NCBI RefSeq assembly: GCF_000003815.2
Contig: NC_049988.1
Coordinates: 735,679 to 799,678 of the forward strand
Origin: Branchiostoma floridae
Lineage: Eukaryota > Chordata > Leptocardii > Amphioxiformes > Branchiostomatidae
DNA length: 64,000 nucleotides
Direction: 5' to 3'
The notes beneath the pieces were generated by a model. It was not told the origin of the DNA, made no database searches, and saw nothing but the letters and a program-made list of their open reading frames with translations. The translations under genes and the position numbers were made by a program. Below are positions 15,030 through 54,573 of the stretch, piece after piece. How positions within the stretch are numbered: the first letter of the stretch is position 1; every line of letters begins with the position of its first letter.

Positions 15030-16777
15030 AGATATATCTGAATATATTATACCTTTCTTATTTTAGTAAAGTAGCCGGCCCCGAACTCAATCTCAACAAA
15101 ACACAAGCGATATGGGCAGGTTGTTGGAAGTTTAGAAAAAAGAAAATTCCTGGAATCTCCACACCTGAAACAGCAATCAAATCCTTAGGCATATATTTTG
15201 GTTACGACAAAAAAGAATGCGAAGAAAAAAACTGGAACAATAAAGTCACTAAAATAGAAAATATTCTAAACATGTGGAAAAGTAGAACCTTAACCCTGTA
15301 CGGAAAGGTAACAGTATTAAAAACCCTAATCATGTCTCAAATAACTTATTGTGCAACTTCGCTTGTAGTTCCAGAGAATATTATTGTTAAGTTAAATAAT
15401 CTATTCTACAATTTTCTATGGTCGGGGAAAAGAGATAAAATTAAAAGAACTGTCGTCATTGCAGAATATGAAAAGGGAGGTCTAGGAATGGTAGATGTTA
15501 AATCACAAATCGAAGCTTTACATGCTAGTATTATTAGACGGTTAATGGACAACACATCAGGCGATTGGAAACTTATACCACGTATGTACTTAAACAGTCT
15601 TGGGAATGACTTTCTTATTTTAAAAATGCACTTTAAAAACAGTTCAGACTCTCCGTGTCTGAAACACATACCACTTTACTATAGAAAGGTAATATTAAGC
15701 TGGCACAAGGCTGGAGGGGGGAATGTATCTGAACCACTCACTCCAGAGGAAGTAAAAAATCACATTATTTGGGGTTCTAGTCATGTCATTAATCATAGGA
15801 GCAAGAAAAGGAGCACAACTTTGTACTTTAAGAATTGGATAAATTCAGGAATTATATATGTAAGAGATCTGTTGGACGAAAATAATTGTATTAACGAGAA
15901 AAACATACTCGACAAATTAAGAGATAAGAAAGATTGTTTAGTCGAAATATACAAAGTGAAAAATGCAATTCCTAGAAGTTGGATAACACTACTGAACGAC
16001 GTACACTGTCAATCCACTGAACAGAGTAGACAAGAATTTGACTACAAGAAGTACACATGTAAATATCTGTATAATAAGCTAATACTAGATAAACTTGATA
16101 GCCCCCATAGCTTGGAAACATGGGCGTCCACTTTCGACAGAAATCTGGAATCGTTTCAAATTCCGTGGATTGACAGAACAATCTACTTCACAACTGAACG
16201 AAAATTGTCAAATTTCATGTACAAACTACTACATAGGATTCTGCCATGCAATAATAATCTCTACAAATGGAAGATAATAGACTCTCCTCTCTGCAACATT
16301 TGTAAGGTGACAGAGAATGAGGAACATATGTTCTTTAGTTGCGCCAGATTAGAAAACTTTTGGGAAAGAGTATCTAGATTTCTATATGTGATCAAGACAA
16401 ATAGTAACATTAACAATTTTGAAACATGCATTCTTGGAATTCCGAGAAAGGTACACAACTCAAAAGCAGGGAACCATATACTAGCTATAGCGTTGTACTC
16501 TATATTCAAATCATGGGTTTTATACAAAGATAAGAAATGTTTCAGTAACACAAATTGTTTTACACTATTCTATAGAAACTTGAAAAATGCCATAGTTACA
16601 GAAAGAAATTTATCAGAATCTAGAGCTGGACAAAAATGGGGAGAAATAATCCCTTTAGTAATGTAATTATATCATTGTACAATATGTAAATACCGAATTT
16701 GTATACCTGTAAATAAAGTTCATGGATTGGACCATGAAAAGTTAAAAAAAAAAAAAAAAAAAAGATATATCTGAATA
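15030..16777 (+). mobile_element. 5'-truncated LINE with 15-bp target-site duplication
   Basis: The 15-mer AGATATATCTGAATA flanks the insertion at 15030-15044 and 16763-16777. The element body runs 15045 to 16762, ends in a ~20-nt poly(A), and has AATAAA at 16712-16717. These are the marks of target-primed reverse transcription with 5' truncation. The intact reading frame and exact duplication indicate a young insertion. Confidence 0.95.
15047..16666 (+). CDS. Non-LTR retrotransposon ORF2 C-terminal part (reverse transcriptase end)
   Basis: The frame enters from the truncated 5' end and stays open to TAA at 16664-16666. It starts after the catalytic YxDD motif, with GPELNLNKTQAIW, the conserved segment following the palm. 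It continues through KSLGIYFGYD and the thumb/connection-like WKSRTLTLYGKVTVLKTL. Near the C-terminus CNICKVTENEEHMFFSC gives the C-x2-C-x7-H-x4-C knuckle of the zf-RVT type. Endonuclease and most of the polymerase are absent, so this copy cannot move by itself. The layout suits L1/Tx1-group elements, but I did not fix the clade. The family would copy LINE RNA into DNA at nicked chromosomal sites. Confidence 0.9.
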   Translation, partial: LYLSYFSKVAGPELNLNKTQAIWAGCWKFRKKKIPGISTPETAIKSLGIYFGYDKKECEEKNWNNKVTKIENILNMWKSRTLTLYGKVTVLKTLIMSQITYCATSLVVPENIIVKLNNLFYNFLWSGKRDKIKRTVVIAEYEKGGLGMVDVKSQIEALHASIIRRLMDNTSGDWKLIPRMYLNSLGNDFLILKMHFKNSSDSPCLKHIPLYYRKVILSWHKAGGGNVSEPLTPEEVKNHIIWGSSHVINHRSKKRSTTLYFKNWINSGIIYVRDLLDENNCINEKNILDKLRDKKDCLVEIYKVKNAIPRSWITLLNDVHCQSTEQSRQEFDYKKYTCKYLYNKLILDKLDSPHSLETWASTFDRNLESFQIPWIDRTIYFTTERKLSNFMYKLLHRILPCNNNLYKWKIIDSPLCNICKVTENEEHMFFSCARLENFWERVSRFLYVIKTNSNINNFETCILGIPRKVHNSKAGNHILAIALYSIFKSWVLYKDKKCFSNTNCFTLFYRNLKNAIVTERNLSESRAGQKWGEIIPLVM

Positions 16778-20323: not shown

Positions 20324-23300
20324 ATGAGTGGTTGTGGTTGTGTGAGTGCGCGTGCGTGTGTATATGTGAATGGAATGTACACAAATGATTTTGTTTAATG
20401 GTTACGTATGATTGAATCACAGTATACTCTAAAAAATTCTTGAATGATGTATAGAAACTTATCAGTCAATCTTTCGCATGTTTTATTTAAAAGTGCGCCG
20501 AATCGGCTGCTATGTTTACAGGCAGCGTGATGGAGAGGCTGTTCGTGACGTCAGAGGGCGTGGGAATCGTGATTGAAGAGGATGTTCCCCTGCACCTGTC
20601 ACTCAACGCCAGTGGTGATGGGAGGATGTGCATCTTGTCCAACTATACCTTTCACTTCCCGAACCCTCGCGGCAGGCTCCCACATTTGAAGTAAGGAACC
20701 TTCAATGTGGTTAATAGCTATAAGGGGGCTCCTTTTTCCTACTGCACATGCGCTGCGAAATGCATTCTGGGTAATATTTTAAAGGTGAAGGCCCCGAGGC
20801 ATAAACAAAACACGTTGGGACATCCATCAAGTCTAGCCAAGATCTATTTACAAGTTAGGGGCTTGTAACTCTGACCTATTACACATAAGATCACATAATG
20901 CATCAAGCTTAAGCTACTCATGCGGAATTCGAACTATGGACGCCCTTGATAGAATGTATCGTTTAGAATTTGCAAGTCATCAATCCCTATATGACATTAG
21001 AAGACCACATTAAAGCTTGCGTGCTAAAATCATTCTTAAAATCGCGTAATATCCAAGATTCCTTTTATTCTATATTCATGGAAGATGCTACCGAATGATT
21101 TTCCCACATTTTTCAGATCTAGAGCCGCGTACAAAAAAAACTCCTAAAGTACACAATGTTGAGTAGATTCCGTGTTATAATGGTTCATATTTAGACTAAT
21201 TTCTGAAATTCAGATGATGGTGGAACACTTTATCTACTCTGTTTTCCTCAGGTATTCGATCTGTGTGGGTGAGAACGCCCGTCAGGTGCACGAGTACATG
21301 TACCATCGGTACTACCGCCAGCCCAGCGGTCTGCCCGCGGACCTGGTGCTCAAGCGGCCCATCTGGTCCACCTGGGCCCGATACAAGAAGGACATCAACC
21401 AGTCCGTGGTGCTGGAGATGGCGGCTGACATCGTCTACTGGAACATGTCCGCTAGTCAGGTCAGTTATCCTCTTTTAAAATCAGGGCCTGAGGAAAATTT
21501 GTAGGAATCATTTTCCTCACATACATTGTTTTGGATTCGGCTAGTATGAAAGTATCAGAAAAGAGCTAAGAAAAATCATACGTCACGAAAATGATTGTTC
21601 TGTTAGCATGATGGAAAACAATGACAGACAAGAAATCGAATGTAAAATAGTTGAATTTTTTTATATATATATTATCCATAGCCTTAGCATACGCTAACAG
21701 TTGGTGTTCATACAAGGCCTACGTCATTGACCTCCCCTGGCAACTAGCTGTCTACAGACTACATCGTATACCACGTTATTTTCAGGAGAGGGTGTCGGTC
21801 TGTAATGCTGTATACATGTATATAATGTTGTATCTGAAAATACTACCAGGGGACAAAAATCGCCAGATTTTTAAGACCTCAGTACCTACCCACATACAAA
21901 ACCCATACAAGTTCATCAAAGTATCCAAGGATCCGAGCTTTGTATGAGAACACGTTTAGTTTTCGTCCCTTTTTTTCAGAAACTTAAGCTAAATAGTAAT
22001 AAAAAGAATAAATGAAATAAAATGGATTCTATTCTACGTTCTAAGATATAGCAAAGGGAAACATCCTTGTAATGACTTGTTGTCCATTAGTGTCATAGAT
22101 AATAACTTTAGATGATCGTATTTTTTGATTGACAGATCGAAATTGACGACTTCTGGGAAACGCGGTACGGAGAGCTTCACTTCAACGAGACCAAGTTCCC
22201 GGGCCCGAAGGATATGTTCGACTACTTCCACCAGAAGGGTTGGGACGGTACCGTCTGGGTTCACCCTTTCACTAACATCGACAGCTTCACTTTCGAGGAC
22301 AATGCCGCTTTTGGCGAACCAGGTACATACATGGTCCTAAGATTTTGTCTAAGTTCACATTTTCATGGGATGTATATGTATTACTATAAGTATCAAATGA
22401 ATTATTGCTATCAATTTATCTTAGTTTCTGTCTCAAGCAGCAGACATTTTCTGAATCTCCTGTACTTTCCAACCAATCCTTCATCATCATCATCATCAGT
22501 CACTGTATTCTGCATCTATAGTCCTTGGAAAGTCCTATAGCTGCATTCAGTCTTTCTTCATCTTTTTTCATTGTGCTTTCAATCCTACAAGCTTCCTTAG
22601 CTCCTGGAGTTTCTTTACTGTTGTAGGAAGGACTCGACCTCTGTGCTTTAGGTCTGCTTTCAGCAAGCTAAGGAGGTTGGCACAATGTCATCCTTTGCGT
22701 GCCTTGAATTTGTTCTCGGTAATTTATTGGTAATTGTTTAAGGGGTTGGAATTCCGACAAAAAAAACACGTTTTTTCTTGTTACTTTAGACTACTGGGTG
22801 TCACAAGCGCCTCAAAAAGCGACGGGCCAACCGGACGTGCCGGGCTTGACGAAGTGGTGGTGTGGGACACAGTACGCTGCCCTGCTGGACGTCACCAACC
22901 CTCTTGCCCGGCGCTGGTTCGTGTCTCGGTTGGAGGTACGTGACACCAATTTTTTTCTATTCTATTTGGTTAATAGAATTTTCATCAATCTGTGACTTTT
23001 TAGAGGTAAGCACACAACCCTCCAAATTTTCGATGGCTATCAGACCATCTTGTTCACGGAGTGACACAGTTCTCGCGAGAGTTGCAAGAACTAGGTCAAG
23101 ACTTGCGTGGACTATTTTATTATCTTATTATTGCGTGACAATGTGGCACTACATACACTCAAGTTTGTAACTTATATCAACAGTGCTACATACACAGTAC
23201 AGACAGAAGGTAAATGTAGTCTTTCCTTTTACTTCTTCAACCGAAGTCAGGTACCCATTTTTTACACCTGGGTGAAGTGAGGAAGGTCGTGTAAAGTGCC

Positions 23301-31956: not shown

Positions 31957-32970
31957 CTATCCTTGATCTTCAGTCTCGCTATTCCATAGTGTGGCGTTGT
32001 CTCGGAGTTGCTGCATGATGAGGGTGCTGTCTTTGTACGAGTTTTCATTTATGCCGCCCGGATCCGCTGTCGAGTCCTCAAACGCCTTCAGCGCCAGCTG
32101 GAACGCTTCTTGAGGATTCTTCCTGATCTCGTAGTGGAACGATGCGAAGTTTAGCGCCACTTTCAGTCGAATGGGGTGTGCTGCTTTCAGCTTGGCAGCC
32201 ATTTCGTGCGCTTTCTCGTAGGACTCCTTGGCCTTCGTCACCATGTTTTCTTGCTCTTCGCCTTCGCTGATCTCCGCCAGGTACCGGAGGTAGTCTGCCT
32301 TGAACCTCTGGTAGAAGACTTTGCCCTCATCATGATTGCACGTGGGGATGAGGAACTTGTCCAGCAGCGCCACGAATTCGCCGCACATCTCCTTCATCTC
32401 GGTCACCACCTTTTGCTTTTCCGAGCCGTCGGCCGCCTTCTGCTCGGCGGACGCGATGGTCCGCAAGGCGGCCCTCCGGGACCCCACCATGTTGTTGTAG
32501 GCTAAGGCCAGCAGGTTCCTCTCCTCAGCAGTTAGCTCCTCGCCCATCTCCACCACTTCCTTCATGCACAACGCCATGTCCTGCCACCGCTCTTCAGCTT
32601 CACACAGCTGGAATGATAACAAGTATTACTCACTCACTCATCAGAGATGACAGACTTCACCCCCTTCACACTTCCCCAGTTTTGCTCTTGTTTTGCACTT
32701 TTAAATAGATTTTGTAGTGATCCCGTACATGTTGTGTTACCTAAGTATGTTAATGCAAACAGAATCACTGTCACTCACACATACACACACGTATGTATAA
32801 CACATAGACTCACAAGTTCACACACGCACACAGAGACCATGGACCCCCCCCCCCCCCCCCCGCACACACACACATAAAACACACACATACACAGGAAGAA
32901 AAAAATACCTCACCGTCATTGTAACGCTACGTACCTTGGCCTTCTGTATCAAAGATTCCTTGTCAGCCAT
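31957..32970 (-). CDS. Divergent 14-3-3 family protein
   Basis: Two exons: 32935-32970 (MADKESLIQKAK, donor GTACGT) and 31957-32607, phase 0, giving 228 residues (usual about 245). The start is fixed by family alignment. The fold is complete: ERNLLALAYNNMVGSRR, FLIPTC, KVFYQRFKADYLRYLAE, HPIRLKVALNFASFHYEI and SYKDSTLIMQQLRDNATLW. Family members bind phospho-Ser/Thr peptides as dimers in the cytoplasm. Here the first groove lysine (usually AYKN) is Asn (AYNN). The Leu of MQLLRDN is Gln, the Leu of DNLTLW is Ala, and the conserved Trp after GARRSS is Leu. The Arg of GSRR and the RY pair are kept. The acidic C-terminal tail is only ETEDQG. This suggests a fast-evolving paralogue with altered ligand choice. 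Its intron contains a CA/C-run microsatellite. Confidence 0.95.
32770..32900. repeat. CA-rich and poly-C microsatellite in the 14-3-3 intron
   Basis: ACACACAT-type repeats on both sides of an 18-nt C-run near 32845. Reading frames across it are low-complexity shadows. Confidence 0.9.
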
Positions 32971-34974: not shown

Positions 34975-35625
34975 TTATCTTTATCTTTATTCGTCAAATC
35001 AACATTGCAGAGCTACCCATGACTAGAAATACCTCTGAATATCGTTGATCTTACAGAAATGAATAAAATCATATTACATAATACCTATACAGTATGTAAG
35101 GCATGAACAGTACATAAACAGACAAAAACACTTAAGCATCAGTCAATGATTTGTTATATAGTCCGATGGTATAGTGTAGAAAGGAGTTGTGCAGTCTAGT
35201 GGTCCTTGCTTTTGGGACAGAGAATGAATGAATGAATGAGTTTATTGCTCAACAATCGCACAGGGTACAATGCATGGCAACCAATAACAACTAATAGCTA
35301 TACAGACAATAGTACTAAGAGGCTACATACAAAACAATAACAAAACATTATCGATAACAGTACAGTTATATATGAGTAATCTGTTCTCGCATTTGGAATA
35401 CATTATGAAGAAACTGGCCGACGTAGATGGATATATGAGTTGAACATGAGAGCTATATATTGAAAATATCGTTTTCTGCAGCAGTAAGAGATATGTGTGT
35501 TTTGGTTCTAATATTCTTAAACAATGTTTCTCTCTCTTTACTGTAGGTAGGACATTTCATAACAAAGTGGAATTCATCTTCTATATTTTCATGACATGTA
35601 GGACACAGTCTCTGATGCTACCTGA
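34975..35625 (-). mobile_element. Two LINE 3'-end remnants
   Basis: On the minus strand 35500-35620 encodes CPTCHENIEDEFHFVMKC, a C-x2-C-x7-H-x4-C knuckle typical of LINE ORF2 ends. Its 3' end runs to GAGCAATAAACTC and an ATTC repeat at about 35225. A second fragment at about 35220-34975 encodes a TRTTRLHNSFLYTIG-like ORF2 tail and ends in AATAAAGATAAAGATAA. Both are truncated relics; the first probably inserted beside or into the second. Confidence 0.75.
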
Positions 35626-35684: not shown

Positions 35685-35761
35685 GGTTTCCCTGGGATTG
35701 TCGTTGGTACGCTCAACTAACTAAGTTAGTTGAGCGTACCTACGACAATCCCAGGGAAACC
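35685..35761. repeat. Near-perfect 77-nt hairpin (37-bp arms, 3-nt loop)
   Basis: Pairing 35685 with 35761 inward gives 36 of 37 base pairs; the only mismatch is T35705/T35741. The loop is TAA at 35722-35724. No terminal duplication was seen and it does not code. Confidence 0.93.
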
Positions 35762-36848: not shown

Positions 36849-39800
36849 ATGGCTGAAAAATCCAACATGGAAGTTCGGAAAGTGATCGGGAATTTGGAAG
36901 CTGAAGATGAAGAAACCACCAGAACTCCATCGGTAAAAGTGAAGAAGAAACCGCCATTTCTACAGAAGGAGAGTGTGAGGAGTACAAGGCGGGTACAGGT
37001 ACAGGCGGGTCCGTCCTGTGGAGACGACGAGTTGGACAGACTTTATGCAACTAGGAAGACAGCAGGTACGGCGAAATTTTATCAACGCTATATTGATGTA
37101 AAATATATATTTATTGTTGCTCAAGCCATTTATAGTTTCCGATACACGACGATTTGTCTGCACTCATTTTTACACCGTCGCTACTACAGTTGTTTATTCA
37201 ACAGCCGGCGAATATTACTCTTTAGAACCCAATTAAAGTACAGAATACAGGATAGATGATGCAGTTATGTAAGAATATGCGTATGAATACAGATACATGT
37301 GATACTACCATTAATTTCAACTTATAGTTTTGACGTCGACATCATATAAGAAACAACAATTGCAAGAGAAATAGACACGCCTTTTCACTTTTTTTCAAAA
37401 TGTCCCTTTCAGTTTTTATTAATGGTAGCAGTTACAGTTTAAAACAGTGTTGAAAGCTGGTATCTCAAGTTAAGTTTGGAAAATTTTGAATGTCTCTGCG
37501 TAGTTAATTTCCAGTTAACAACGCACTAGATTTATCTCGTTGCATATACATACTAATAGACTAATAATGTGACGTCATTGTGTCTCACAAACAGGCTGAA
37601 ATTTTGCACATTTTCCGACCACAAACGATAATTGCCGATTTGCAACATCGTAACATCTCGCTGAATTTACCGGAAAATCCCGACAGCAAGCCTTCGTGTT
37701 TCTGTAACGAATCGGCTAACATAATGTCATGTACCACATATATTTGGAAATTATTCTTGAACTACGTTGGTAATATGCGAAAATCTTGTACTTATTATGT
37801 GCCCGGACACAAAAACTTACAAACATATTTTATGTGGCCCGGTGTAATTTCTTTGAGGTTCGACCATGTTTATAAACATGTACATGCACCTGCATCAACT
37901 TAAGTAAACGTGTAAACAATACAGGTTTGGGCAATACGTTCTTTGCAACACAGCCATAACGACAGTTCGGAGATTTCATACCCCAAGGAACTTTTTGGAA
38001 CCTTCGTACTAGGTTAATAACTTTGTTTTTCTAATTGATCATGCAACTTACACTGTAATTAACATAATTTATTTTATTCAAATCGGTTTTCTTAAGCAAA
38101 AATACATATATTCTCCTGGAGACGTCTTCTCGTTTCAAATTTGGCAAACTTTTATGCATAAATCCTATCATAAATTATGCAAATACCGTCTACATTTACA
38201 TAATCTATGCATTGTGGTGAACACTTTCGACAAAGGTGTCCCCCAAATGTCTCGAAGTCGTGATTGTGTACATGTTCCCAATTTCTATTTAATTCCTCAT
38301 TTCTATACAGTATTTCCACCTGCTGCTGTTCGACCGAAGGAGCCACCACCTCAGCCGGCCGATGTGCCCTGCCGCCCGCCGGACCCGCTCTACGTCAGGC
38401 GGGTGGGACAGAGGTTCTGGTCTACCAAGCGGATCCTCGACTGGCAGAGACAGGCACTGCGTGCAATGGAAGACCCAGAAGCACTTTTGAAGCCTGTTAG
38501 AGAATATGGGGAGGAGCCAAAATTGCAGAACGCTGAAAACGGAGAGAGCGATGCAAATCACGGACATCCCAAGAATTATGAAGAACACAAATATTTCCTG
38601 TACGATAAAAATCACGGACATTATGAGAACGATGAAGAACACAAATATTTCCAGTACGATAAAAATCATGGACATTACGAGAACGATGAAGAACACACTG
38701 CCAGGCATTACGAGAACGATGAAGAACACACTGCCAGGCATCACGACAATGGTAGACATCACGAGAACGATGAGGAAAATTCCAACTTATCCATGCACGT
38801 CTATGCCGATTTAGACCCAGACTTCCTGGCAGTACAAGACGCGATCCAAAATGCCTCAGCTCAGCCATTCTATGAGATGGACATCTCCCCTGCTGATGAA
38901 GAACAAGAACAGCCATTTTACAAGATGGACGTCACCGCTGCCAAAGACAAAGTGGAAGAAGAACAGCCTTTTTACGAGATGAAAGCTGCCTCAGCTGATG
39001 GGGAAAACGAACAACAGCCTTTCTACAAAATGGACGATAACCAGCTGGGCCAGCCAACACCAGATAACGTGTATGCAGATTTGGATGCTGAGTTTGTGGC
39101 AGCACAAGATGCAGTGTGCATGAGACACCGAGTCAGGGAAGACAGCAGGGGTGAGTAACAGGCATATACAAATCGTAATCCAATTTCCATAGTTAACGAG
39201 AAAATTGCCTAATCCCGCACTGCTCTATCATAGGACCCTTGCAACATTGAAAATTGATAGATATACATTATGCAAATAGACCTAATTTGTATGATTAATG
39301 AGTAAATGCTATACTCCCATTGTGGTAAATGACGGAAATTTCTTACTTGTGGCCTTTGCAAGTGAACTGGTGAACATCATTGCACATTACTTATGCTTGT
39401 TTGCATAAGTTATCAGAAAACGCTGTTACAGCCTTTGTTAAGAGATGTGCGTCTGTTATTTGGGTGGAGACGATCAACTAATATGATTTATGCAAATGAG
39501 GACCATATTTGCATAATGAATGACAAACGCACATACTACACCAGTTTTAGAGGTTGAAATAGATAAACAAGAGGGTAACATTCCACACTGTTCTTCTCTT
39601 ACATTGCAACTTGTTTGTTTCTCGACAGATGGCGCTGACCAGAGGTGCAGTCAGAACTGCCGTGAGTTCTGCAGGTCCCGTCCAGGGTGCGTGTTGGCTG
39701 TCTGTGTTGGTGTCATCATTGCCGTGACTGCTGCAACAGTGGTGGCCGTCATCTTCAACCAGCACAGCAGACTGAGATTCCACCACAACGAAAGCCCGGT

Positions 39801-41865
39801 GGTATGTTTTTTACATACTCATCAACAGAACCAGTTCACTGTTTGGAAATAGAAAAAGGTCGGTACCGTAATGTACCAGCCAACCTGAGGCGATGTCCTT
39901 CATGTAAGATGGTGTTGAAGATGAGCATCATTTTCTAATGACATGCCCTACATATAGCGTAGATGGACAAAAATTAATGGATATGATCACATGTAAATCT
40001 AGCACACCTTTACCAAAGACATGTACTTTCAATCTACCTATGCCATATCCAGACTGCATATCTTCGTATTTATGCCAATACATATGTAATGCTCTAAAAA
40101 GAGAGAATCTATTGTACAGTAACAGGCCGACTTGTTTAACTTGTGTATTACACAATGTCAATACGCCATTTATGTTCACATTCCTGAACTATACATGTAT
40201 GTAGTTATATACTGCCTTAGACGAGTATGATTGTATTAATTGACTTATTACTGTTGCCTTACAATTGTACCATGTACAAATGTCGCGCAATAAAGTTCAT
40301 TCACCCAAGGTTACGGTACAATAGAACACAGAAATGAGTGACAGAATTACTGAAAATTTACTGAATGTGATTTGTGATATCGCAATGAAATTGTTAATTG
40401 TTTATGTCTCTAAAATGTTTGTTTTTTTCTCGTTTCTAGCTGAACCATACAACACTTTCAACCGTCTCCACAACGCCGTGTGCACACCTGGTTGTGACGT
40501 CACCAGCTACTTCCGAGACATCAGGTAATAGATCGTTCCTGACGTCACTCCCCACGTGACTAAATTCCTCAATCTCATTGGCTAAACAGCTGAATCTGTA
40601 TGTTGTAACAACGTACGCTCTATTTATTTCTGCTATTTCTACTATCACAATAAACTAAACAATGTGATTCAAACAGGTCCATTTCAACGAAACGCTTCAA
40701 TTCTGTCTAAGCAACTGCGTGTAGCTCTCAACATTGGACACGAGCCAAACCACACTTGACTCACAATTCTTCACCTATTCTGTTACACCACCTCCTTTAT
40801 GTTGTCAAACTTAGTTTTTCAAGGTGGTAAAATGTTTTTCAACATTTTGCAGATTGGAGAACTGAGTGGACACTCTACATCAGAGAGTATTTCCAGCAGG
40901 ACAGTGATGCCGCCATGGGTTTGGAAGAGCGCTATCCTGACAATGAAGTTGTGATGGCCCTGCTGGAAGATCGGTTCTTCTGGCCCTGGGTGTGTCTGTA
41001 CTGGGAGCACAAAACCGCCCTCCCTCACACCATGTTAGATGCTGTAGCCTCCTGCATAGTGGATGGAACAGAAAGTACGTACATGGAGTCACACGGCTTC
41101 TCCACATAAATGGAATTCTTCTCTTCCATGCTTGGTGCATTGAAGGCACTGCCAAATATCACACAATCTTCCCAAAGCAGCGACAACAGGTACCTATCGT
41201 TGTCAGAACGTACTCTGTCTAACAATGATGTTGAGGCGTTGGTCAACCTTTTCCCATACCTGAAAGGACTGAAGGGGCTTTTCCTTCAAAACTGCGGACT
41301 GTCTGGGAAAGCAGCAGCCACGATAGCCGGACGGCTCCCTCTGCTGCGTACAGTGACAATCATATTTCTCAGCTCGAACAAGATCGGAGATGACGGGGTG
41401 GAGGCCATTTCAGAGGCCTTTCCTCACCTAAAGGCTCTCATGAGATTATATATCGCTAACAACTCGATAACAAATGTGGGAGGAAGAGCCATGGCCAAAA
41501 GGCTGGGTTACTTGCAGGAGCTACAGAGTCTCAACTTGAAGGACAATGAGCTGGCGCTCAGTCTCTCCTCACTGGCAAAGACGTTTGTCAACATGACACA
41601 ACTGCGATCTGTCCGCTTGTGGCCCATCACATGTAGGGCAGCCTCCTTCCGCATGGCGGCGCAACAGGTACAGGACGCCGTCCACAGGCTTGAGGGCCAA
41701 GTACGCAACACTCGGAACGTTTTGCTATATGATGGCTCAACTGGAAGCAGAGTTGGTACTTTGGGAATGGCGTGGAAAAGAGTAGAGCACGTTTTGACCA
41801 CTGGGGTTTACATATCAAAGGGACATATAAAGATGTCTTTAGAAATCAAGCTGTTAGAAGAGTAA
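36849..41865 (+). CDS. Novel single-pass membrane protein: tyrosine-motif tail, TM helix, RNI-type LRRs
   Basis: Six exons: 36849-37065, 38311-39150, 39629-39801, 40440-40524, 40853-41078, 41181-41865; phases join without error to 741 residues. An upstream in-frame ATG at 36813 would add 12. I do not recognise the family. Residues 1-352 have no signal peptide and are charged. HYENDEEH repeats have Tyr at about 177, 195 and 206. Four PFY(E/K)M motifs have Tyr at 260, 276, 294 and 311. VYADLD(P/A)(D/E)F is seen twice (Tyr 237 and 327). A Cys/Arg-rich stretch precedes one hydrophobic span, about 373-395. A Ser/Thr-rich linker and a WTLYIREYF to PWVCLYWEH segment follow. From about 515, about four 28-residue LRRs of the ribonuclease-inhibitor/NLR kind occur (LFLQNCGLSGKAA, IFLSSNKIGDDG, LYIANNSITNVG). 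YxN and YxxL are known SH2-docking forms, so signalling is inferred. The last intron is uncertain. Confidence 0.82.
39845..40310 (+). mobile_element. LINE 3'-end remnant inside an intron
   Basis: Encodes RRCPSCK, then after a one-base frame shift VEDEHHFLMTCPTYS, the Cys/His knuckle of a LINE ORF2 C-terminus. It ends at AATAAAGTTCATTC near 40305. It sits in the intron after the TM exon of the LRR membrane-protein gene. 5'-truncated and broken. Confidence 0.75.
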
Positions 41866-42068
41866 TCAAATGTATCATTGTAGACTTGGGCACGTGTGTA
41901 CGTCCAGGGTGACTCTTGACTGTTCATGTTGTCATAAAACACAACAAAATCCCTGTCATTGTATCACTAAAAGATGTGACATACGTGCTGGAAAGAATTT
42001 TTCAAACTTCCTATCATATTATGTATGGGGTGTCGTGAAACTGTGTATGTGTAAGATTTTGTATGAAT

Positions 42069-42074
42069 AATAAA
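42069..42074 (+). terminator. Poly(A) signal of the LRR membrane-protein gene
   Basis: AATAAA about 200 bp after the TAA at 41863-41865. It is the first canonical hexamer downstream and marks the likely transcript end. Confidence 0.55.
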
Positions 42075-42089
42075 CTATTTTATCAAAGT

Positions 42090-43306
42090 TCGTGTGTTGG
42101 ATCGGATCTGTACGTATTTGTGGCAAATGTAAACATAGTCTGGGTTGGAATATGTCAAAGATTCTAATTAGTTCGTAATCCATGGCAAAGGTATAGTATT
42201 ATTAAGTTAACATATTAAGTTTTTAACGTATCTGTTGAAAACCATTTTTTTCGGATTTTGTCGTATATAGCTGTGTCCGACGATCGGATATGTTTCGGAT
42301 TCTTTGTCGGATTCACCTGTTGGAGGTCAAATTTTCTGCAAATGCCAGGTTAATTATTTTTTTAGTGGTTGATAGGTCTTAGAACTGGGATTAAGTGATG
42401 TAGGCGTGGGCCCCCTAGCGACTTGTTTTGAAATGCAGGGCCGATTTTGTCGTACACTTTGAAAGAGAAAAATTCAGGAAAGGGTCGGCGGATTGTCATC
42501 ATATTTGGTCAACTATGTAGATACATCGAGTGATGATTCATATAATCAAATGCTAATGATGTTGATCAGGTGCTTATTCGCATAATTGATATGAAAAAGC
42601 TTTACAAATCCCCTGCATTATAGGGTAAGACTTGATTTCGGGAACACCAGATGCACTCATGTAGGTTATGAAAACAGACGTACATAAATAGGTTAAGTAA
42701 ACAGCTAGAGCAACCAAACATAGAAAATACCAGAATGTAACATTTGAGGAACCAACAAAATTCCTGGTTTGCAGTTTGTACTGTTGAATTATTGAGACAT
42801 AACACTTTGGCGTGTCCAGAAGCTCAGTTAACGCCGTGGTCAGGGGTGAGCTAGGAATATTTCCAATATTGATACATAAACACAGTGGAATTGATGAAAT
42901 ACTATACTGGCTTAGATTACATAGTCTTTCAAACTCGCAAAGAAAGCTTATAATACTTCTGTTGGTCATGCGCTACAACACGACTAGGCTGCCCATATGC
43001 AAGGCATGCCATGTAGACATGTGCACCGCTTCCAAACTGCCATGCACATAGATGTAAAAGTGGCACTGCCGTTAATGCCAATCAGTTTGGAAATATATTC
43101 AAGAACCGCCTGATAGACACGTTTCTCTCTGGCTGGAGACAAGAAAGTAAACAAGAAAGCTTCTAAAAAAAGCTGGCCAGTGCGTATTTTGGAAAAAGCC
43201 TGGATGTTAAACAAAATCACACGAAAAAAAGAGTTTTTAAACATCGAATTACTGAATTGGTCTTTCTTCTATTAAAAAAACACTACATGAGATTTGTCTA
43301 ACAAAG
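42090..43306. other. Intergenic DNA, 3' flank of two convergent genes
   Basis: The LRR gene (+) and the Kelch gene (-) converge here. Apart from the repeat at 42325-42530, no feature is recognised. Confidence 0.5.
42325..42530 (-). repeat. Inverted copy of the repeat at 33175-33365
   Basis: Reads GGAGGTCAAATTTTCTGCAA, ATGCCAGGTT, GTGGTTGATAGGT and AGGAAAGGGTCGGC. This is the reverse complement of 33175-33365 with about 20-25% differences by eye. Confidence 0.75.
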
Positions 43307-43935: not shown

Positions 43936-45831
43936 CTAAGGTTCATCTCCAAAGACCTCTCTGTTACAGTTAGTGACATCACTTCCACCTTGTAAATAAC
44001 CTTCGTACACAGCCACAGCTCCGTGCATGGCTATGGCTTCCGGCATTTTTCCTATCTCGGCCCAGCATTCTCCGGACGTGACGTCGCCTAAGGGATTGTA
44101 ACAGTGGATACTGTCATGCGCCATCGCACCCATGAGTCGGGCCCCGGGGTCCTGCATACCCCCCATCACATAGATCTTATTGTCTATCAGTACAGCGGCA
44201 TGGTCCGCACGTTTAAAGTTCATATCTGGAGCAGACGAGATCGATCCATCCTTCGGTTTGAAGACTGTGACCTGTTTGCTGAGTTCTCCCCCTAGAATAT
44301 AGATGGTGTCGTCCAGAACCACGGCAGGTGCAGCAATGTGATCCAGTTCGAGGGAGGTCAGGAGAGTCCATGAGTCAGTAGAAGGGGTGTAGATTTGGAT
44401 ATAAGGACACGGGTGATGGGCACCCAGGCTGCCACAGATGGCGTACAACTTTCCATGAAGGGAGGCAACACTGGGGACTCGAACTGGCTGGGGAAGAGGG
44501 GCGCACCACTGCCACTCGTTCTTGCTTGGGTGATAACATTCAACTGTATCAACAATGATTGGACCTGCTCTGCCACCTAGAACATACACCTGTCCTTCCA
44601 CTACCCCACACCCATGCGCGCGTCTGGGCTGCTGCATTGGCGCTAGGGTTTCCCACGTGGAAGCGAACAGGTTGTACCTCAGAACTTGACTGAGAGATTT
44701 TCGTTTGATCTTCCCGCCCGTGATGTAGATATGATGCTCATGGACCACTACACCCATCATCTGTACGGGGGAGGGCAGGGTTGATATCGTGCAATGTGAC
44801 ACAACTGGAGTAGTGTTACTTGTTAAATTGTCTGTCCTGTTAGACGACAGGAAGGACTTTCTGGTCCTCACAGCCTCCCTTTTTATCGAGAGATCATAAC
44901 ATCTCATCTCAAGGACGGGCTTCCATCCAGTGGCTTCTCTCTTCCTTCCACCAACAACTAAAATCATCTGTTTGCTGAAACGTCTGGGTTTGATGTCTCG
45001 TAGTGATCCAAAACATGGACTCCAGTAACTTTTGGCTGTCTCCGTCATCTGAATACATTCTTGCGACTGCCTGACGAGTGGATGCGTCTGGACAGTGTTG
45101 ACTAGATAGCTGTATTGTAGAAACGGAAGGCGGACTAAAGCCAAGAGATCCTTTATCCGACACCTGCTTTCCTTTTCATGAGTCTTCATCCACTGCACTA
45201 GAGTCTCAAACACTAGCTCTTCATTCCTTGTCTTCAGACTGTCATGGGCAAGATACTCTTGTAACTGATGGATAGGAATTTCCGCAATCTCCTCCTCACG
45301 TGCAACATCTGCAAACATCTGCAGTGCACATGCCCTCGCAGCGTCGCACAAACCAGTACAGCCTAGAGCATCGGCAAGGTTCCAGATACCAAGGCAGTTA
45401 CTAGAATCGAGGTTTTTCTCCAGAAACTGGCAACAGGCGTTGGTGATCTTGGTAAGTTGGAACATACAGGACGCCTCCAGGAGTGACTGTACATTTGTAT
45501 GGTGGATTAATATAGCTCCTGTGTAGATAAAGTCAAGAAGGATTTTCACAGTTTCCTTGTCAACTCCTTCGAGACGTACTTTCCCTTCTAGGTGTTCCTT
45601 TAAGTCCATAGAGAACATTGCCGCAAAGTATGGATTGCTTGATAACACGGCTTTGTGGCAAGGAAACCTGCCATCACCAACACTCAACACGACGTCGGTG
45701 AGGATGCCAGTAGTTCTCTGTTGGTTCAAAACCCGGAGAATTTCCTCAGCATGAGTGGTATCTCGGAATTCACAGTCTTCAACTTGCAACAGTTGTGAGA
45801 CGGCTGGCTCTTCTGGGATTGAGGAAGCCAT
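43936..45831 (-). CDS. BTB-BACK-Kelch protein (KLHL family)
   Basis: One uninterrupted coding exon, 631 residues, typical KLHL length. The ATG at 45831 is preceded by TTTCAG|GACACAAG, so a 5' UTR intron ends at 45840. Domains in order: BTB about 44-150 (GILTDVVLSVGDGRFPCHKA, FSMDLKEH, FIYTG), BACK about 155-265 (CLGIWNLADALGC, IKDLLALVRLPFL) and six Kelch blades about 300-610. Blade glycines are seen in LVVGGRK, IYITGGK, VYVLGGRAG, IYILGGEL and YVMGGMQD. The fourth blade has LYAICGSLG, with Cys in place of the first Gly. Such proteins are usually Cullin-3 substrate adaptors: BTB binds Cul3 and Kelch binds the target. The substrate is unknown and I cannot name the vertebrate orthologue. No frame damage was seen. 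Confidence 0.95.
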   Translation of the reverse strand: MASSIPEEPAVSQLLQVEDCEFRDTTHAEEILRVLNQQRTTGILTDVVLSVGDGRFPCHKAVLSSNPYFAAMFSMDLKEHLEGKVRLEGVDKETVKILLDFIYTGAILIHHTNVQSLLEASCMFQLTKITNACCQFLEKNLDSSNCLGIWNLADALGCTGLCDAARACALQMFADVAREEEIAEIPIHQLQEYLAHDSLKTRNEELVFETLVQWMKTHEKESRCRIKDLLALVRLPFLQYSYLVNTVQTHPLVRQSQECIQMTETAKSYWSPCFGSLRDIKPRRFSKQMILVVGGRKREATGWKPVLEMRCYDLSIKREAVRTRKSFLSSNRTDNLTSNTTPVVSHCTISTLPSPVQMMGVVVHEHHIYITGGKIKRKSLSQVLRYNLFASTWETLAPMQQPRRAHGCGVVEGQVYVLGGRAGPIIVDTVECYHPSKNEWQWCAPLPQPVRVPSVASLHGKLYAICGSLGAHHPCPYIQIYTPSTDSWTLLTSLELDHIAAPAVVLDDTIYILGGELSKQVTVFKPKDGSISSAPDMNFKRADHAAVLIDNKIYVMGGMQDPGARLMGAMAHDSIHCYNPLGDVTSGECWAEIGKMPEAIAMHGAVAVYEGYLQGGSDVTNCNREVFGDEP

Positions 45832-45840
45832 CTTGTGTCC

Positions 45841-47811
45841 TGAAATTTATGAACAGAGCAGTTAATTCAAATAAGCTTTGCTGTGTACGTGAAAATAGTT
45901 TAGGCTATGGTCAATTGTCAAAGGACCCTGCCGGAAAGTTCGCGGGCTTTTTTGTTGTCACTTTTGGGCTCGACCGCTACATGGCCCAGTGGGACCTTCG
46001 GCTCCCCGGGATATCTTTCAGAACAGCCGGGCCCCGTGTTCATTTAAAGTCGGAGTTAAAGTCAGCCCTGGACCCGGTGGGGTACACTGAGGGATGCTTT
46101 GTAAGATTTACAGTATGGTTGAATACTTTTTAAAGGACCATGATGCTTGTTTAGATGCCGTGCATATATTCGAATTAACATGGTCACAAAAAGAAAACAA
46201 GTTAAAGCTGCCATGCTTTCTATCAAATGAACAAAAGTTGAAGTGATAAAACATGGTAGCACAGCCAACAAGGCACTCATTCCTGTATTCAAGAAGTGAA
46301 GTAGCCGTGTAGTAAATGCGACACTAGTGTGGACACTGGTACAAGCATGGCTTCAATACGGGTGCCACTTATACAAACAAGATTCACTTCTGCAAATACA
46401 GTCATGGCTACTTCGCTAGCGTCACTTCTACAAATACAAACATTTGGCCGCAACACACCATTACTTTTTGCCCATTTTGGTACTTAATGGTCATGTTGAC
46501 CTTCCCCGAAGAAGAAAAACAATTTTTCCTGAAATCTGGTGAAACTGAGTGAGTGTGCTGATGTCATCAATAAAATTTACTTGTTGTGGCCTTTTAGCGA
46601 CTCCTGAGTGACGAAGCTTCTTTACATTAGATATTATGCTTGAACTGGAGGTACAGACCATACATGTATTCTAAAATGCACCGATGCATTCCTCAGGGAA
46701 TAGGTCTTTTTGGCTTAAACTGACTTGAAATTTCCTGCTTTGGGCGGGGGTAGAAAAGTAATAAGTTATACATAATATAGGCCTTTCAGCTGTATACATT
46801 TTTCTTATATCGTTTGATTGTGTACAGAACGATCTCAGACTTTGAATAGAAACAAAGGGGCCATACGTAAGTCGTAACCCAGTGGGACCTCCTGCTGCTA
46901 CCGGTCTATTTTTGAGCAGTAGAAGACTACGATGTGTAGTACTACAGTTAAAACTACAAATGTAAATTGGGCCTTAGAATAGTTAAAATACATTTAGAAT
47001 ACACTTTGAATGCCGTTCGATATTTCTCCACTTCAAATGCACCTCGAAAGTTTTCAACATATCAAAAACATTCAGGCCAGCCAAAAGAACGGGCACAAAT
47101 ATCTGGAATGCAGTGAAAATTTCTAGAATGCACTACGAATTCCCAAGAGTAGGAAAGAATGTTCATTCTGGTGGCATTCCGGCTCATTCTTGCTCTCGTG
47201 TGAAGGGGCCTTAAGGGCTGGTACAAATGTTATCGGTATCAAATGACGCAGGACCGAATGGGCAGGAGGAGGCCCACGGTAAACAACGCCACTGCGACAC
47301 TGGACAACCGGGACCAGGGTACAAGTGCTACTGAGGCGAACTGACCTCCTATCCAACCAAACCGGTCCGTGATTTTCAGCACCCTTCACCCTCGGGGTCT
47401 GTGTTGACCGCGTCAGTTGTTGGACGCCCCTGACATACGTGTATGTTACATCCGGGTCTTCTCTTTACAGTATTTATAGATCAGAATGGGATTCGATATT
47501 CATGGTGTTTAAGCGACCTCTAGCGGCTTAAGTCAACAACACAAGAGGTCACTGACGTCCAGAATACTAGTAGACACATTATTGTATGCATAGCATACGT
47601 GGAATGTTGACGCTTTAATTAGTCTAAATTACTATAATTATAACATTAGAATGGTTTCACCTGTAGGGTTCGTACTTTACTGTGTGTATGTCAGTTCTGA
47701 CTCCATGCGGTTTCTTGTGGAAGAACGTTTTACAGTGTATGGGTGGTCTTCACTGTGTTATAATCCAAACGTCTTAAAACCAATGAAACTTTTCCCAAGC
47801 TCTCACACCTC
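45841..47811. other. 5' flank of the Kelch gene and intergenic DNA
   Basis: Probably contains the Kelch promoter and first exon; a GC-richer stretch lies at 45925-46085. The dispersed repeat at 46216-46600 follows. A phrase like CCCAGTGGGACCT occurs at both about 45985 and 46879, suggesting another small repeat. No further coding sequence is seen. Confidence 0.5.
46216..46600 (+). repeat. Dispersed repeat, partner of 62055-62310
   Basis: Shares AACAAGGCACTCATTCCTGT near the left end and GTGCTGATGTCATCAATAAA near the right end with 62055-62310. This copy is longer, with extra sequence in the middle. Confidence 0.7.
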
Positions 47812-49883: not shown

Positions 49884-52800
49884 CTAAAATACCTGAATTC
49901 TGTGATTTTCCCTATCACTGACTACAACATTACCCCTGGACATGAGTGCAACGCCCTCTAGTCCTTTGACTTCCCCGTCCCCACTACCCCATGTCCCAAA
50001 CGCACACAGAAAGCTCCCATCTTGCCTGAAGACCTGTAACCGGTTGTTTCCACTGTCTCCCACAATGATATGGCCTTCCTGGTCCACAGCTACCCCACGT
50101 GGGTACTTAAACTGACCATTCCCACTTCCCTCACTCCCAAACTTTAGCACAAATCGTCCATACTTGTCGAAGACCTGTATCCTGTGGTTGCTGCTGTCAC
50201 TGACGATGACTTTGTTATCCCTCGCCACAGCGATGTAGTGCGGGTTTTCAAACTGACCGTTACCGTTCCCGAGGCGACCAAACTTTCGTACGAATGCACC
50301 GTCCAATCGGAAGACCTGTACTCTGTGGTTGTCTTTGTCGCAGACGTAGATGAACCCCATTCTGTCCGTAGCGACCCCCCATGGGTAACTTAGCTGTCCA
50401 TCGCGGCTGCCTTCCTGGCCGAATTGACGAATGAATCTCCCGTTACTGTCGAATATCTGGACACGATGGTTGTATCTGTCTGCTGTCACAATCCAACCCT
50501 GAAAAAAAAAAATATATATAATAAGTTAGAGCATCACAAAAAGCATATATCCATGTATCCTCTAGATTAGGGCTGACTCCTGAGCTTTAGATTTTTTTGT
50601 TCCATTGTTTGGGAGCCCATGTTGGTAATACAAATTACATATTATGTACAGTACAACTTCCTTTCCCAGCATAGAGTACCTTAGCCCATTCTGAATATCA
50701 CAAGTCAGCGCTAGCAACAATAGCTAATATGTAACCTAAGCTCTAGTTTTTATATTTTCAATGTAAAACTTTAATTTTGTGCATAATGGTCACTAATACA
50801 AAGCTGTTGGTACATGATCCTTCATCAGTTAGGACAAGCAGTCTTTTACCTTGAAAAGAAGCAAGCTAAAAAAAATCTAACTGGAAACTATATGTGCCTC
50901 CACTGCCTACCTAGAAAAATGTCTAGGGTCGGCAGGTTTTTCTAAGGTAGTTAGGGAAACAGGAAACACAACATTTTTTTCCTACTTGGGAAAATAAAAT
51001 AAAGGGAATGAAATTCAACACCAACAGTACATTGTATCGAAAACAATCTGTAGAAGTTAACAACGATAGTCCTTTATAACCCTTGCCAAATGTTGTGTGG
51101 CTTAATGGATTGTACAATTTACCATTCAGCATGAATGGAGGCCAAGTTCTCAAAGGGTCAAGTTTTTATTCATATTCCCCACCCTCTGGGTAGCATTCTT
51201 TCCATGGACATCCATGATCCCACTAAGAGGATAAAAATTCTGCCCCAATTAACCACTGAAAAATAATTCAGACCGGAAGAAAATCACTGTGCTCTGGTTA
51301 AAAGTATCATTCATGCCAAATTAAGTATTTGATAGGATTTCACTTGTAAGCAGTCTGTAATTCAAGTAGGCTGTCCCATTATTGTCAACAACGTGTCCTT
51401 CCTTTGTGTTATTCTTTGTGGGCACAGCTGCAGTTCAAGGGCATCTGCAAGAGGGACTTGAAGGCTCTTGATATCAATGCACTGGGAAGACCTTGCAAAT
51501 GACCGTTTCAACTTGAGATGCATACTGTCCAGGCAGCTAAAATCAGGAGATGCTAGACCCTTTTCTATTTTTGTTTTGTCTTTCTACATCAAAGAAGGAA
51601 GAGAAAATAAAGAAGAATAACAATACACCAGCAAAACATAATATAGGAGTGGTTTGATGGAGAGGATATGATTATGAAATGAATAACCTGTGAGTTGACG
51701 GTGACACCAGCTAGACAGTCAAACTCTCCCTCTCCTGTCCCATAAGAACCGAACACTCGAACCAGCTGTCCATTGGGGGTGAAGACCTGGAGAAGAAGGG
51801 AAGGTGGACACAAAATGGATCTTCATTTGACACTTCATTTGACACTTAACTTGACACTTCATTTGACATTTGACACGATCAATGAAATGTATGACTGGCC
51901 CTTAGATCATATTGCACAGTCATGAACACAAACATTATTTTTCATAACATGTCAATTTGAATATATTTCAATACATGTATGCAGTAGCGAACTATTATCA
52001 ATAATGTTGTTTTTACATTTTTACTTTACAGGTTTTTGATTTTGTTAATATACATGCAACATAATATAGTTAGTAGAAAACACAAAAGCTCAGTGATGAA
52101 CACAACAGCAGCAATTTAATGTCTTTGTCTTTATCCAGATTCCAGCACAAATTTCATAATGTACAAATTTAAAGGTTTTTGATGGTTAAGAACAAAAAGA
52201 CAATATAAGTGAGAGAAAGCTTTTTGCAAGCCTAGAACTAATTCCTTACATTAAGTTTTTTTTCCGCACTGTACCAAAAACGTTTTTAAAAGCCCAGTTC
52301 AGGCCCAGTATACAGCACAAACTTGGACCTTATAAAGATCACACTCACCTGAACTCTATGGTTGCTGCTGTCTGCCACAATGATGTAATTTTCAGGAGAC
52401 ACCGCCACCCCCCGGGGCCATGTGAAGTGCCCCAGGTCGCTACCCTTGGACCCAAACTTTGTCTGGATCAACCCTTTTGTGCGGTAGAACGCCGACGTCG
52501 GGCTTCTGCGCTGAACACGAGAGAAATCCGAGACAATGTCGTTCAACGGGACATCATAACTGGTGAATTCAAGCGAGCCGTTGTTGTTGTTAGCTCTAGC
52601 TCTGTTCTGTTCACTTCTACTCGTTGTGGAGATGTGAGACACTCTACCTGCTACACTGTTCGACTGGGCAGGGGAGGGTGTACTATTGGCAGGCTGTGGA
52701 GAAGGCACTTGGGGCGAGACACTGACAGTTCTTGGAGAATGTCTCAGAACGGGAGGGGTCGCGTGGAGCTGAGAGGAGGTACGAAACATCTCCACCGCGG

Positions 52801-53770
52801 GATGACCTCGAAACGCTTCATTTGAGAGCGACGCTCTGGGATTCCTCACAGGAGCATTTGACGAACTGTTTGGGTTGACAGTATTGATGACGAAGGCTGA
52901 TGATGATAACTCTCCTAATGTAGCAATGTTGGAATGTAAGGTTTGACTGTTCTGAAGGGTGAACTTGACTGTTTTGCAGTCATCCACGGCCGTATCGATG
53001 GTCGTGTTCTGTAACTGTATGAGATACTCCTTACCCTGCTTGTGGAAGTTGAGCAGTTCTGCATCGGTGACATCATTTACAGCACTTGGACTGCTTTCGG
53101 TTATTTTTGATTCAGCCGAGTCACAATGGCTCGCAATGCTGGCCAGCTCCACTTCAAGGTTCTCCTGTTTCACTTTCAACAAGCGTAACTCCGACTGCAG
53201 AAACAAGTCCACCTCGTTCAACAGTATCTGCTCTCGCTCTCGGAGCTTCCGTATGTTCTGATCTATAGAACTTTTGATGTCCATCTTCACCATCTCTCCG
53301 CTCTGTTTGATATGAGTTGCCGTCTTCTCCACAATATTTACCGCCTCTGTCAACTTTGGTAACTCTCTCCAAATCAGGCTTATCTGTTGTCCTATGTCCA
53401 GCTTCAGTTGGCCGGCGTGTGCCTTCTTGCAGGCATCGCACAATCTCTTCGGACAGTGAAAACATTTTGAAATGGCCGTCGATCTTCTGCACACCTGACA
53501 GCTCTCTGTGCGCGAGCTAAACTGAGCCTCCGCCGGCAGGTCTAGGAACTTGAGAATTGTGATGTTGTTGGGGAAGCCGGAGATCCCCTTGGGGGGTATG
53601 TTGTGCATGGCACGGCATTCCGGACACTTGACCTTCCGTCGGACGGGATCGGCTAGCTGCTGTAAGCAGGGGTCCTGACAGAAGGTGTGCTGACAGGGGA
53701 GAATCTTGGGCCTCTTGTAACGATCCAAACACACTGGACACGTCAAGAGCTGTTCAATCTGCTGCTCCAT
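49884..53770 (-). CDS. TRIM-NHL protein: RING, B-box, coiled coil, six NHL repeats
   Basis: Three coding exons: 52349-53770, 51688-51786 and 49884-50498, all phase 0, 711 residues. The ATG at 53770 follows CTCTCTAACAG|GATCTCGAAGC, so a 5' UTR intron exists. RING about 11-52 (CPVCLDRYKRPKILPCQHTF, CPECRA); B-box-like CQVCRRSTAISKCFHC with CDACKKAH; coiled coil about 130-240; Ser/Pro-rich linker about 300-430. The C-terminus has exactly six NHL blades, each FG..G..G.F then (D/N)(N/S)HR(V/I)QVF, closing at HRIQVF*. Blade 1 and 2 are split by the introns. The architecture matches invertebrate NHL-1 / Drosophila thin and resembles TRIM32: E3 ubiquitin ligases whose propeller binds RNA or protein. 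RING zinc ligands are intact. The exact orthologue is not settled. Confidence 0.95.
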
Positions 53771-54573
53771 GCTTCGAGATCCTGTTAGAGAGGAAATAAA
53801 CAGATTTTGAGATAACACCTACGCTCCATATACACAAGGCTTGTCCTCATTGAAATGTTAAAAGTAGCAACTTAGTAGTAAGGTTTTACAAATAGAACAG
53901 CTCATTTTTTAGCCACACATACCTAATTGTTCGGGAAACGTCTTCAGGAATGATAGCCATAGCCAAAAAATGATGGCTTATTTTTCTATTTGACATAATA
54001 ATAATCATTAATGTGTTTTATAGGCAAGTATAACAAAAGGTCCCGGTAACACTTGTTACAATGTACATTTTAGCTCTTTAACTTAGAGGACGCATGTAGG
54101 GACATTAACTATGATTTAAAAACTACACTAGGTCAAGTCAATGTTGTAGAAAGAATCCAACAATGGAAACATTGTTGTCACAGTCATTTACTGTAAGTGT
54201 AAAACATTTTGCTACACAAAGCGAGTTACAGAAGTTGGCAAATACCAGCAATCAATCATTTCTTCTTCCTTTTGAGAGCCAGAAAAACTGTCACAAAGAT
54301 GACAATTTCCTTTCATCGATGTGACTAATCTTTAAATGTTAGGTTACCATCATATTGAAACGGTGATGTTTGGATGTTTGTTACTGACTTTGGCGATACA
54401 TATAAACCAGGTTCAGTGAGGGGAGTGATCTGATCGACTCAAATCTGCCTGACTGAGGCATTAAAATATTATATTATATTATCTAGAGTATCTCAATTTG
54501 TAACTTACATTTGTAGTTCAGGTTTTAATAAACGACTGAGTTGATTTCTAATACAGTGTAATACTACTTTGGG

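Follow-up and report, generated by a model that had tools for sequence, protein, structure and literature searches.

A multicopy amphioxus family joining a tyrosine-motif tail to ribonuclease inhibitor-type leucine-rich repeats: probable type II membrane receptors, with an in-frame stop in one copy

We investigated a gene in a stretch of 64,000 nucleotides from Branchiostoma floridae (contig NC_049988.1, positions 735,679 to 799,678 of the forward strand), called here the window, with positions counted from its first letter. The gene, at 36849-41865, is one copy of a family whose members probably (at about 0.6, by our estimate) are type II signal-anchor recognition receptors with a multi-phosphotyrosine tail, a transmembrane (TM) span, a stalk and an ectodomain of leucine-rich repeats (LRRs) of the ribonuclease inhibitor (RNI) type. 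The sequence strongly supports a membrane protein in which a tyrosine-motif tail is combined with RNI-type LRRs, since this architecture recurs at 15 of the 16 tail loci found in the genome. The window copy, as it reads, is truncated, a null allele or the product of a base error. Its features are as follows.

36849-37065, plus strand: exon 1, with the start codon and 72 N-terminal tail residues, placed by its frame, its donor and the homologous exon 1 in paralogs
38311-39150, plus strand: exon 2, the acidic tail with a conserved block and nine tyrosine motifs
38555-38746, plus strand: minisatellite built of 54-bp and 33-bp units, which encodes the YEND (pYxN) array, of varying length among paralogs
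39629-39801, plus strand: exon 3, coding for the only TM span and for a basic juxtamembrane segment that contains Cys
40440-40524, plus strand: exon 4, the Ser/Thr-rich stalk (S or T at 13 of 28 residues)
40853-41865, plus strand: exon 5, the whole ectodomain, with an 84-residue pre-LRR region, about six RNI-type LRRs and a C-terminal region
41107-41109, plus strand: in-frame TAA, present in the window copy only, which closes the frame at 523 residues, upstream of the LRRs
41188-41649, plus strand: LRR repeats, their concave-face positions the most diversified
42069-42074, plus strand: AATAAA polyadenylation signal, about 200 bp 3' of the last stop
38024-42509, plus strand: duplicated stretch, 97.7% identical to an inverted copy (L009) about 88 kb away

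The family was delimited by searching the window's own genome (513,431,437 bases in 431 contigs). The tail search gave 49 matches, which were grouped into at least 16 loci, seven on the contig labelled C10, three on C7, two on C2 and one each on C1, C4, C5 and C9. At 15 of the 16, the tail is followed by a TM exon and then an LRR exon, always in that order. The exon 5 search returned 21 matches, the window itself included, and four partial LRR matches lie on C10; relatives of exon 5 were counted from DNA matches, with more distant LRR relatives outside the count. Eleven of the 15 LRR exons are intact and open over 336-345 residues. Exon borders were mapped in ten copies (nine paralogs and the window copy). 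The GT donors of exons 2, 3 and 4 stand at the aligned place in all ten, that of exon 2 always as gtgagt, and so does the AG acceptor of exon 5, while the exon 4 acceptor was found at its extrapolated place in eight. Two results weigh against the receptor reading. The LRR exon is broken in 4 of the 15 loci, namely the window copy, L012 (internal stop), L017 (frame ending at 275, with the remaining part of the exon matching about 17 kb away) and L038/L039, and the exon 3 acceptor lies off its extrapolated place in 7 of the 10 copies. The displaced acceptors mean that in some copies exons 3 and 4 start elsewhere or their starts are uncertain. The sixteenth tail copy (L044/L045 on C7; L044 at C7:25938500-25948400) showed no TM or LRR exon in the fetched stretch, and a search by eye for another ectodomain saw none there, with N gaps present. 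No relative of the LRR part was found in the viral and prokaryote contigs scanned, and the titles and abstracts on amphioxus LRR or tyrosine-motif receptors, among the matches listed, hold no description of the family.

Several of these loci had further features of their own. In L038/L039 (C10:3236704-3243573), exon 5 is split by a 6.87-kb insertion a few codons from the position of the window's stop. The insertion has terminal inverted repeats of about 1.35 kb that are 95% identical, and such long repeats mark it as a foldback DNA transposon. Downstream in L044, where N gaps also occur, a frame resembles a RING-CH domain by eye. L048 contains, upstream of its LRR-exon remnant (reverse complement, 1463-3187), a 575-residue open frame that by eye resembles a type I LRR membrane protein and whose tail repeats EPYARSxVFDVPQY.

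In the window copy, exons 1-5 form an open frame, with exons 2 to 5 starting at 38311, 39629, 40440 and 40853. Splice sites were scored with a weight matrix of the general animal consensus. Among the 403 GT and 405 AG sites between 36000 and 43000, the donors of introns 1-4 rank 3, 1, 7 and 6 and the acceptors 5, 3, 1 and 2. The four junctions named in a preliminary description of this DNA (37065/38311, 39150/39629, 39801/40440 and 40524/40853) were thus borne out by the open frame, by high-ranking splice sites and by agreement with the paralogs. A codon score was trained on four coding stretches elsewhere in the window. Read in frame, exons 1, 2, 3 and 5 scored 0.18 to 0.36, and introns 1-4 were below zero in every frame. 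In exon 1 another frame scored 0.29 versus 0.19 for the true one; a homologous exon 1 is present in paralogs L010, L011, L013, L014 and L039, and some copies share conserved sequence upstream (87% over 246 bp against L011). Exon 4, with 28 codons, scored -0.12 in frame, so its assignment rests on the splice sites and the paralogs. On this sequence evidence the gene is real, and its 3' end had been misread.

The misreading concerned a supposed fifth intron, by which six exons were joined into one 741-residue frame. This model fails: the LRRs sit in exon 5, which is a single exon in the paralogs, and the TAA at 41107-41109 interrupts it. Directly after the TAA and in the same frame, the LRR frame runs from 41110 to 41865 (251 residues). 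All 14 other copies, the transposon-split one included, have a sense codon at the stop position (Tyr in 13, Phe in one), and exon 5 of the paralogs is continuous, with no intron across the stop region. For the window copy to be intact, an intron of about 100 bp would have to remove the stop and yield the 741-residue protein. The frame-keeping GT-AG and GC-AG introns around the stop were listed, and the GT-AG ones scored. Such introns exist and three of them give 741 residues, but all three have weak sites; for 41078^41181, the donor ranks 183 of 403, the acceptor 81 of 405, and their sum is -6.0, versus 8.5 to 10.8 for introns 1-4. The best candidate pair, 41074^41267, combines a donor ranked 16 of 403 with an acceptor ranked 8 of 405 and scores 4.8. 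As a control, 243 artificial stops were placed across five coding stretches, two taken from this gene. A phantom intron scoring at least -6.0 was found for 87% of these stops, 4.9 was reached by 12% and 8.5 by none, which puts the best pair near the level that 12% of artificial stops attain. That pair would also delete an LRR unit. With the query begun at 41269, the match to ribonuclease inhibitor 4per fell from 72.2 to 65.6 bits and that to NLRP14 from 40.9 to 30.2, showing that the stretch to be cut out is LRR, although some chains, such as 5irm (51.5 to 52.5), gave no drop. The codon score of 41077-41178 was indecisive, 0.35 of 473 null segments scoring as high. An intact window copy is therefore highly improbable, the paralogs having conserved coding sequence in the same stretch and Tyr or Phe at the stop position in all 14, and intron 5 was rejected for this copy.

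The stop could instead be unfixed, either a heterozygous site or a base error of the assembly, and the locus would then make the full receptor. The 251 codons after the TAA stay open, as they did in 0 of 20000 mononucleotide shuffles, and the nearest copy, L009 (C10:863200-871000), is 97% identical and has an intact LRR exon. The two copies match at 100% in exons 2 and 3, while exon 5 is 97.1% identical and exons 4 and 5 differ by 3-5%. This contrast suggests gene conversion or an assembly effect, and from sequence the pair may be a recent inverted duplication, a product of gene conversion, or an assembly or haplotype artefact. Exon 1 of L009 was not found in the roughly 6.7 kb fetched upstream. 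Against an unfixed stop, breaks occur in 3 of the 14 other LRR exons as well, so genuine decay is frequent; we consider this explanation possible, if on the unlikely side. Taken with the tail-TM-LRR order at 15 of 16 loci, the confinement of the stop to the window copy makes the unusual architecture a trait of the family, and the window copy a truncated gene, a null allele or a base error. Since the TAA lies in the last exon, its mRNA should escape nonsense-mediated decay, and the predicted product of this copy could be a 523-residue tail-TM-stub, or nothing.

Two topologies had been left side by side in the preliminary description, and sequence rules make one the better: a type II, N-in/C-out arrangement is likely, favoured by the charges flanking the TM span and by the Ser/Thr stalk. 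The window copy has a single TM span (KD19 2.82), and the N-terminal start of the protein looks hydrophilic by eye. In 13 of 15 copies the N flank carries the higher net charge, counted over K, R, D and E; the exceptions, L010 and L012, may both read past the exon end. Ser or Thr fills 12-15 of the 28 stalk residues in the seven copies with clean borders, and 14 and 17 in L016 and L017, whose borders are unsure. C-side of the TM, the sequon N-M-T/S occurs in 11 of 11 copies and LPNxT in 10 of 11. This orientation is weakened by the margin of only 1 in the N-flank charge of the window copy, and by the fact that RI/NLR-type LRRs often have Asn where the sequons sit. In the opposite orientation (N-out/C-in), the LRRs would be cytosolic as in NLRs and the tyrosine-rich region extracellular. 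The nearest solved LRRs are indeed those of ribonuclease inhibitor and NLRPs, which are cytosolic, but a 373-residue acidic tail would need to be translocated without a signal peptide, and the flank charges, the stalk and conserved sequons on the C side, and the retention of YADL and PFYxM in 16 of 16 tails all speak for N-in. We regard N-out/C-in as very unlikely.

On the cytoplasmic side of the likely N-in/C-out protein, the tail of the window copy is acidic (pI 5.0) and about 370 residues long (373 before the TM), with nine tyrosine motifs: three YEND, four FYxM and two YADL. The list of parts given earlier, an acidic N-terminal side, nine tyrosine motifs, one TM span and RNI-type LRRs, thus stood, except for the gene model at the 3' end; the regular placing of the motifs that had been remarked on is partly an effect of the 54/33-bp minisatellite. 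Across the 16 tails, Y[AT]DL occurs twice and PFY.[MI] four to five times in every one, while YEND ranges from 1 to 22 (in L014, L039 and L040 the first tail part lies outside the same open frame, which makes their counts less sure). Repeats of HYENDEE, PFYxM and YADL were far above composition shuffles of exon 2. Differences between duplicated motifs of the window tail are mainly silent: the VYADLD pair, over six codons, has 4 synonymous versus 0 replacement differences, and among the four QPFYxM copies the protein varies only at E/K. Selection was compared between paralogs of group A (7 copies, 6 for the first tail part) and group B (4 copies). Omega was 0.29 for both tail parts versus 0.43 for the ectodomain in group A, and 0.36 and 0.22 versus 0.61 in group B.

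Other results on the tail weigh on the other side. The counts of simple motifs in the window tail do not exceed composition, with 3 YxN versus 0.96 expected (0.063 of shuffles had as many) and 2 Yxx[LIV] versus 1.65. In group A, synonymous divergence (dS) is also lower in the tail parts (0.20 and 0.31) than in the ectodomain (0.45), and gene conversion or a lower rate may therefore add to tail conservation. Window exon 2 contains no match to the canonical immunoreceptor tyrosine-based inhibitory motif (ITIM), (I/L/V/S)xYxx(L/I/V). The immunoreceptor tyrosine-based activation motif (ITAM) has two YxxL 6-8 residues apart, and the YADL tyrosines of the window copy, 237 and 327, are separated by 90; both motifs are taken as defined in PMC3819593. 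The hemITAM sequence DGYxxL near the N-terminus is likewise missing from the window copy, whose YxxL motifs read VYADLD. Several YxN motifs, as in a LAT-like tail, are present (three in the window copy, and 1-22 YEND over the 16 copies), and YEND fits the Grb2 SH2 consensus pYxN. A further, strongly conserved block of the tail, VRPKE...VRRVGQRFWSTKRILDWQRQAL / VRPKE...PPDPLYVRRVGQRFWSTKRILDWQRQAL (window 38313-38530, exon 2), is shared by the window copy and 10 aligned paralogs; it had no Pfam or NCBIfam match and was not found in L014.

The ectodomain is of the RNI type. A profile of the 11 intact copies matched ribonuclease inhibitor 1dfj at E = 1.9e-29, along with NLRP chains, and Pfam LRR models matched all 11 ectodomains; the only other matches were three, in one member each, at E 0.05-0.09. 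No C-type-lectin-like domain was among the Pfam matches of these ectodomains, and the sole match of the first 84 ectodomain residues was MASE2 at E = 0.15. Pfam gave no NACHT match in the spliced 523-residue part or exon 5, and no LRRNT or LRRCT match in exon 5 or the 11 paralogs. No TIR match was obtained either, and the TM precedes the LRRs, so the type I order of TLRs does not apply. A single-sequence AlphaFold model of exon 5, with the stop read through, had a mean pLDDT of 44.1 and was not used.

Replacement changes are concentrated on the concave face of the LRRs. Thirty concave positions were taken from the LxxLxLxxNxL consensus; they were set after the alignment had been seen, without use of variability. 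The proportion of replacement differences (pN) at these positions was 0.384 versus 0.141 in the rest of the LRRs in group A, and 0.215 versus 0.071 in group B, and none of 500 sets of 30 non-core sites drawn at random was as high in either group. A reading of this pattern as diversifying selection is tempered by several facts. The synonymous proportion (pS) of group A is also raised on the concave face (0.446 versus 0.355), the excess in pN/pS is weaker (0.86 versus 0.40 in group A, with 6 of 500 random sets as high; 1.41 versus 0.48 in group B, with 31 of 500), and omega of the ectodomain stays below 1. The concave-site test moreover compares paralogs and ignores their tree, and so it supports diversifying selection and does not prove it. 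The recognition role raised as a possibility in the preliminary description gains support, at the level of sequence, from the conserved tail motifs together with the diversified face. A protein of the same build could instead act in adhesion, gamete interaction or allorecognition and not as an immune receptor. Any recognition role could go with a diversified binding face and a varying copy number, and the present evidence separates none of them; we hold a non-immune function to be rather unlikely.

The neighbourhood of the gene holds other coding stretches and repeats.

31957-32625, minus strand: 14-3-3 coding stretch
43936-45846, minus strand: BTB-BACK-kelch coding stretch
49884-50525, minus strand: NHL-repeat coding stretch
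52286-53818, minus strand: RING plus NHL coding stretch
22133-22540, plus strand: weak match to glycosyl hydrolase family 31 that falls short of the curated cut-off

Short Cys/His frames at 39908-40204 (in intron 3) and 35453-35617 (minus strand) by eye resemble the 3' end of a LINE reverse transcriptase, and a longer frame at 15032-16666 has a zf-RVT match. A near-perfect palindrome lies at 35685-35761, with 38-nt arms that are 97% complementary and 1 nt between them. At 63316-63978, a long simple repeat has an open frame that reads SIHPSIHP.

If the family does consist of type II recognition receptors, the concave face of the LRRs would bind ligand, clustering of the receptor would let a Src-family kinase phosphorylate the tail tyrosines, the YEND sites would dock Grb2 in numbers differing among copies, and YADL and PFYxM would dock other SH2 proteins. 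Known systems share parts of this plan. RNI-type LRRs link the family to NLRs and ribonuclease inhibitor, in contrast to which it is membrane-anchored and lacks a NACHT domain. LAT-type adaptors have several pYxN sites and no large ectodomain; the family resembles them in the several Grb2-type pYxN sites of an acidic tail and differs from LAT in its large ectodomain. CLEC-2, Dectin-1 and NKp80, tyrosine-motif receptors of the type II C-type-lectin-like kind, have an N-terminal cytoplasmic YxxL tail, one TM, a stalk and a C-terminal recognition domain, an order that is predicted for the family from sequence; unlike them, the family has LRRs where these carry the lectin-like domain, a tail of about 370 residues, nine or more tyrosine motifs and no DGYxxL hemITAM (PMC3819593).

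Two amphioxus proteins are closer in organism. BbLcLRR is likewise an LRR membrane receptor, and in Jurkat cells its BbLck-dependent tyrosine phosphorylation goes with SHIP1 and SHP1/2 binding, which are features of BbLcLRR; unlike the family, its order is LRRNT, LRRs, WSC, LRRCT and TM, with typical LRRs and tyrosine sites after them (PMC8211107). FrLRR also has no signal peptide, a proposed signal anchor and an LRR ectodomain. It differs in its folate-receptor domain, LRRNT/LRRCT-capped LRRs, C-terminal TM and lack of a cytoplasmic tail; amphioxus Grb2 associates with this tail-less protein, a feature of FrLRR, and its authors suggest an unknown co-receptor (PMC10199209). Together, these reports on Lck, SHIP1 and SHP with BbLcLRR and on Grb2 with FrLRR suggest that amphioxus has the parts for the proposed signalling. 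A bolder version, which we offer as speculative and unlikely to hold in full, is that an invertebrate chordate carries germline-diversified type II receptors in which NLR-type LRRs outside the cell would be the variable face, Grb2 sites set in number by a minisatellite (1-22 YEND) would tune signal gain per copy, and the tails could partner tail-less receptors such as FrLRR to reach Grb2.

The best-known recognition receptors with tyrosine motifs are those of vertebrate leukocytes, which carry Ig or lectin-like domains. If the proposed reading is true, these chordate receptors would share the vertebrate leukocyte plan with an NLR-type LRR ectodomain and would represent an independent solution. 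The variable YEND array raises the question of whether the number of Grb2 docking sites sets signal strength in natural receptors. The family may also offer candidates for the co-receptor suggested by the authors of FrLRR (PMC10199209).

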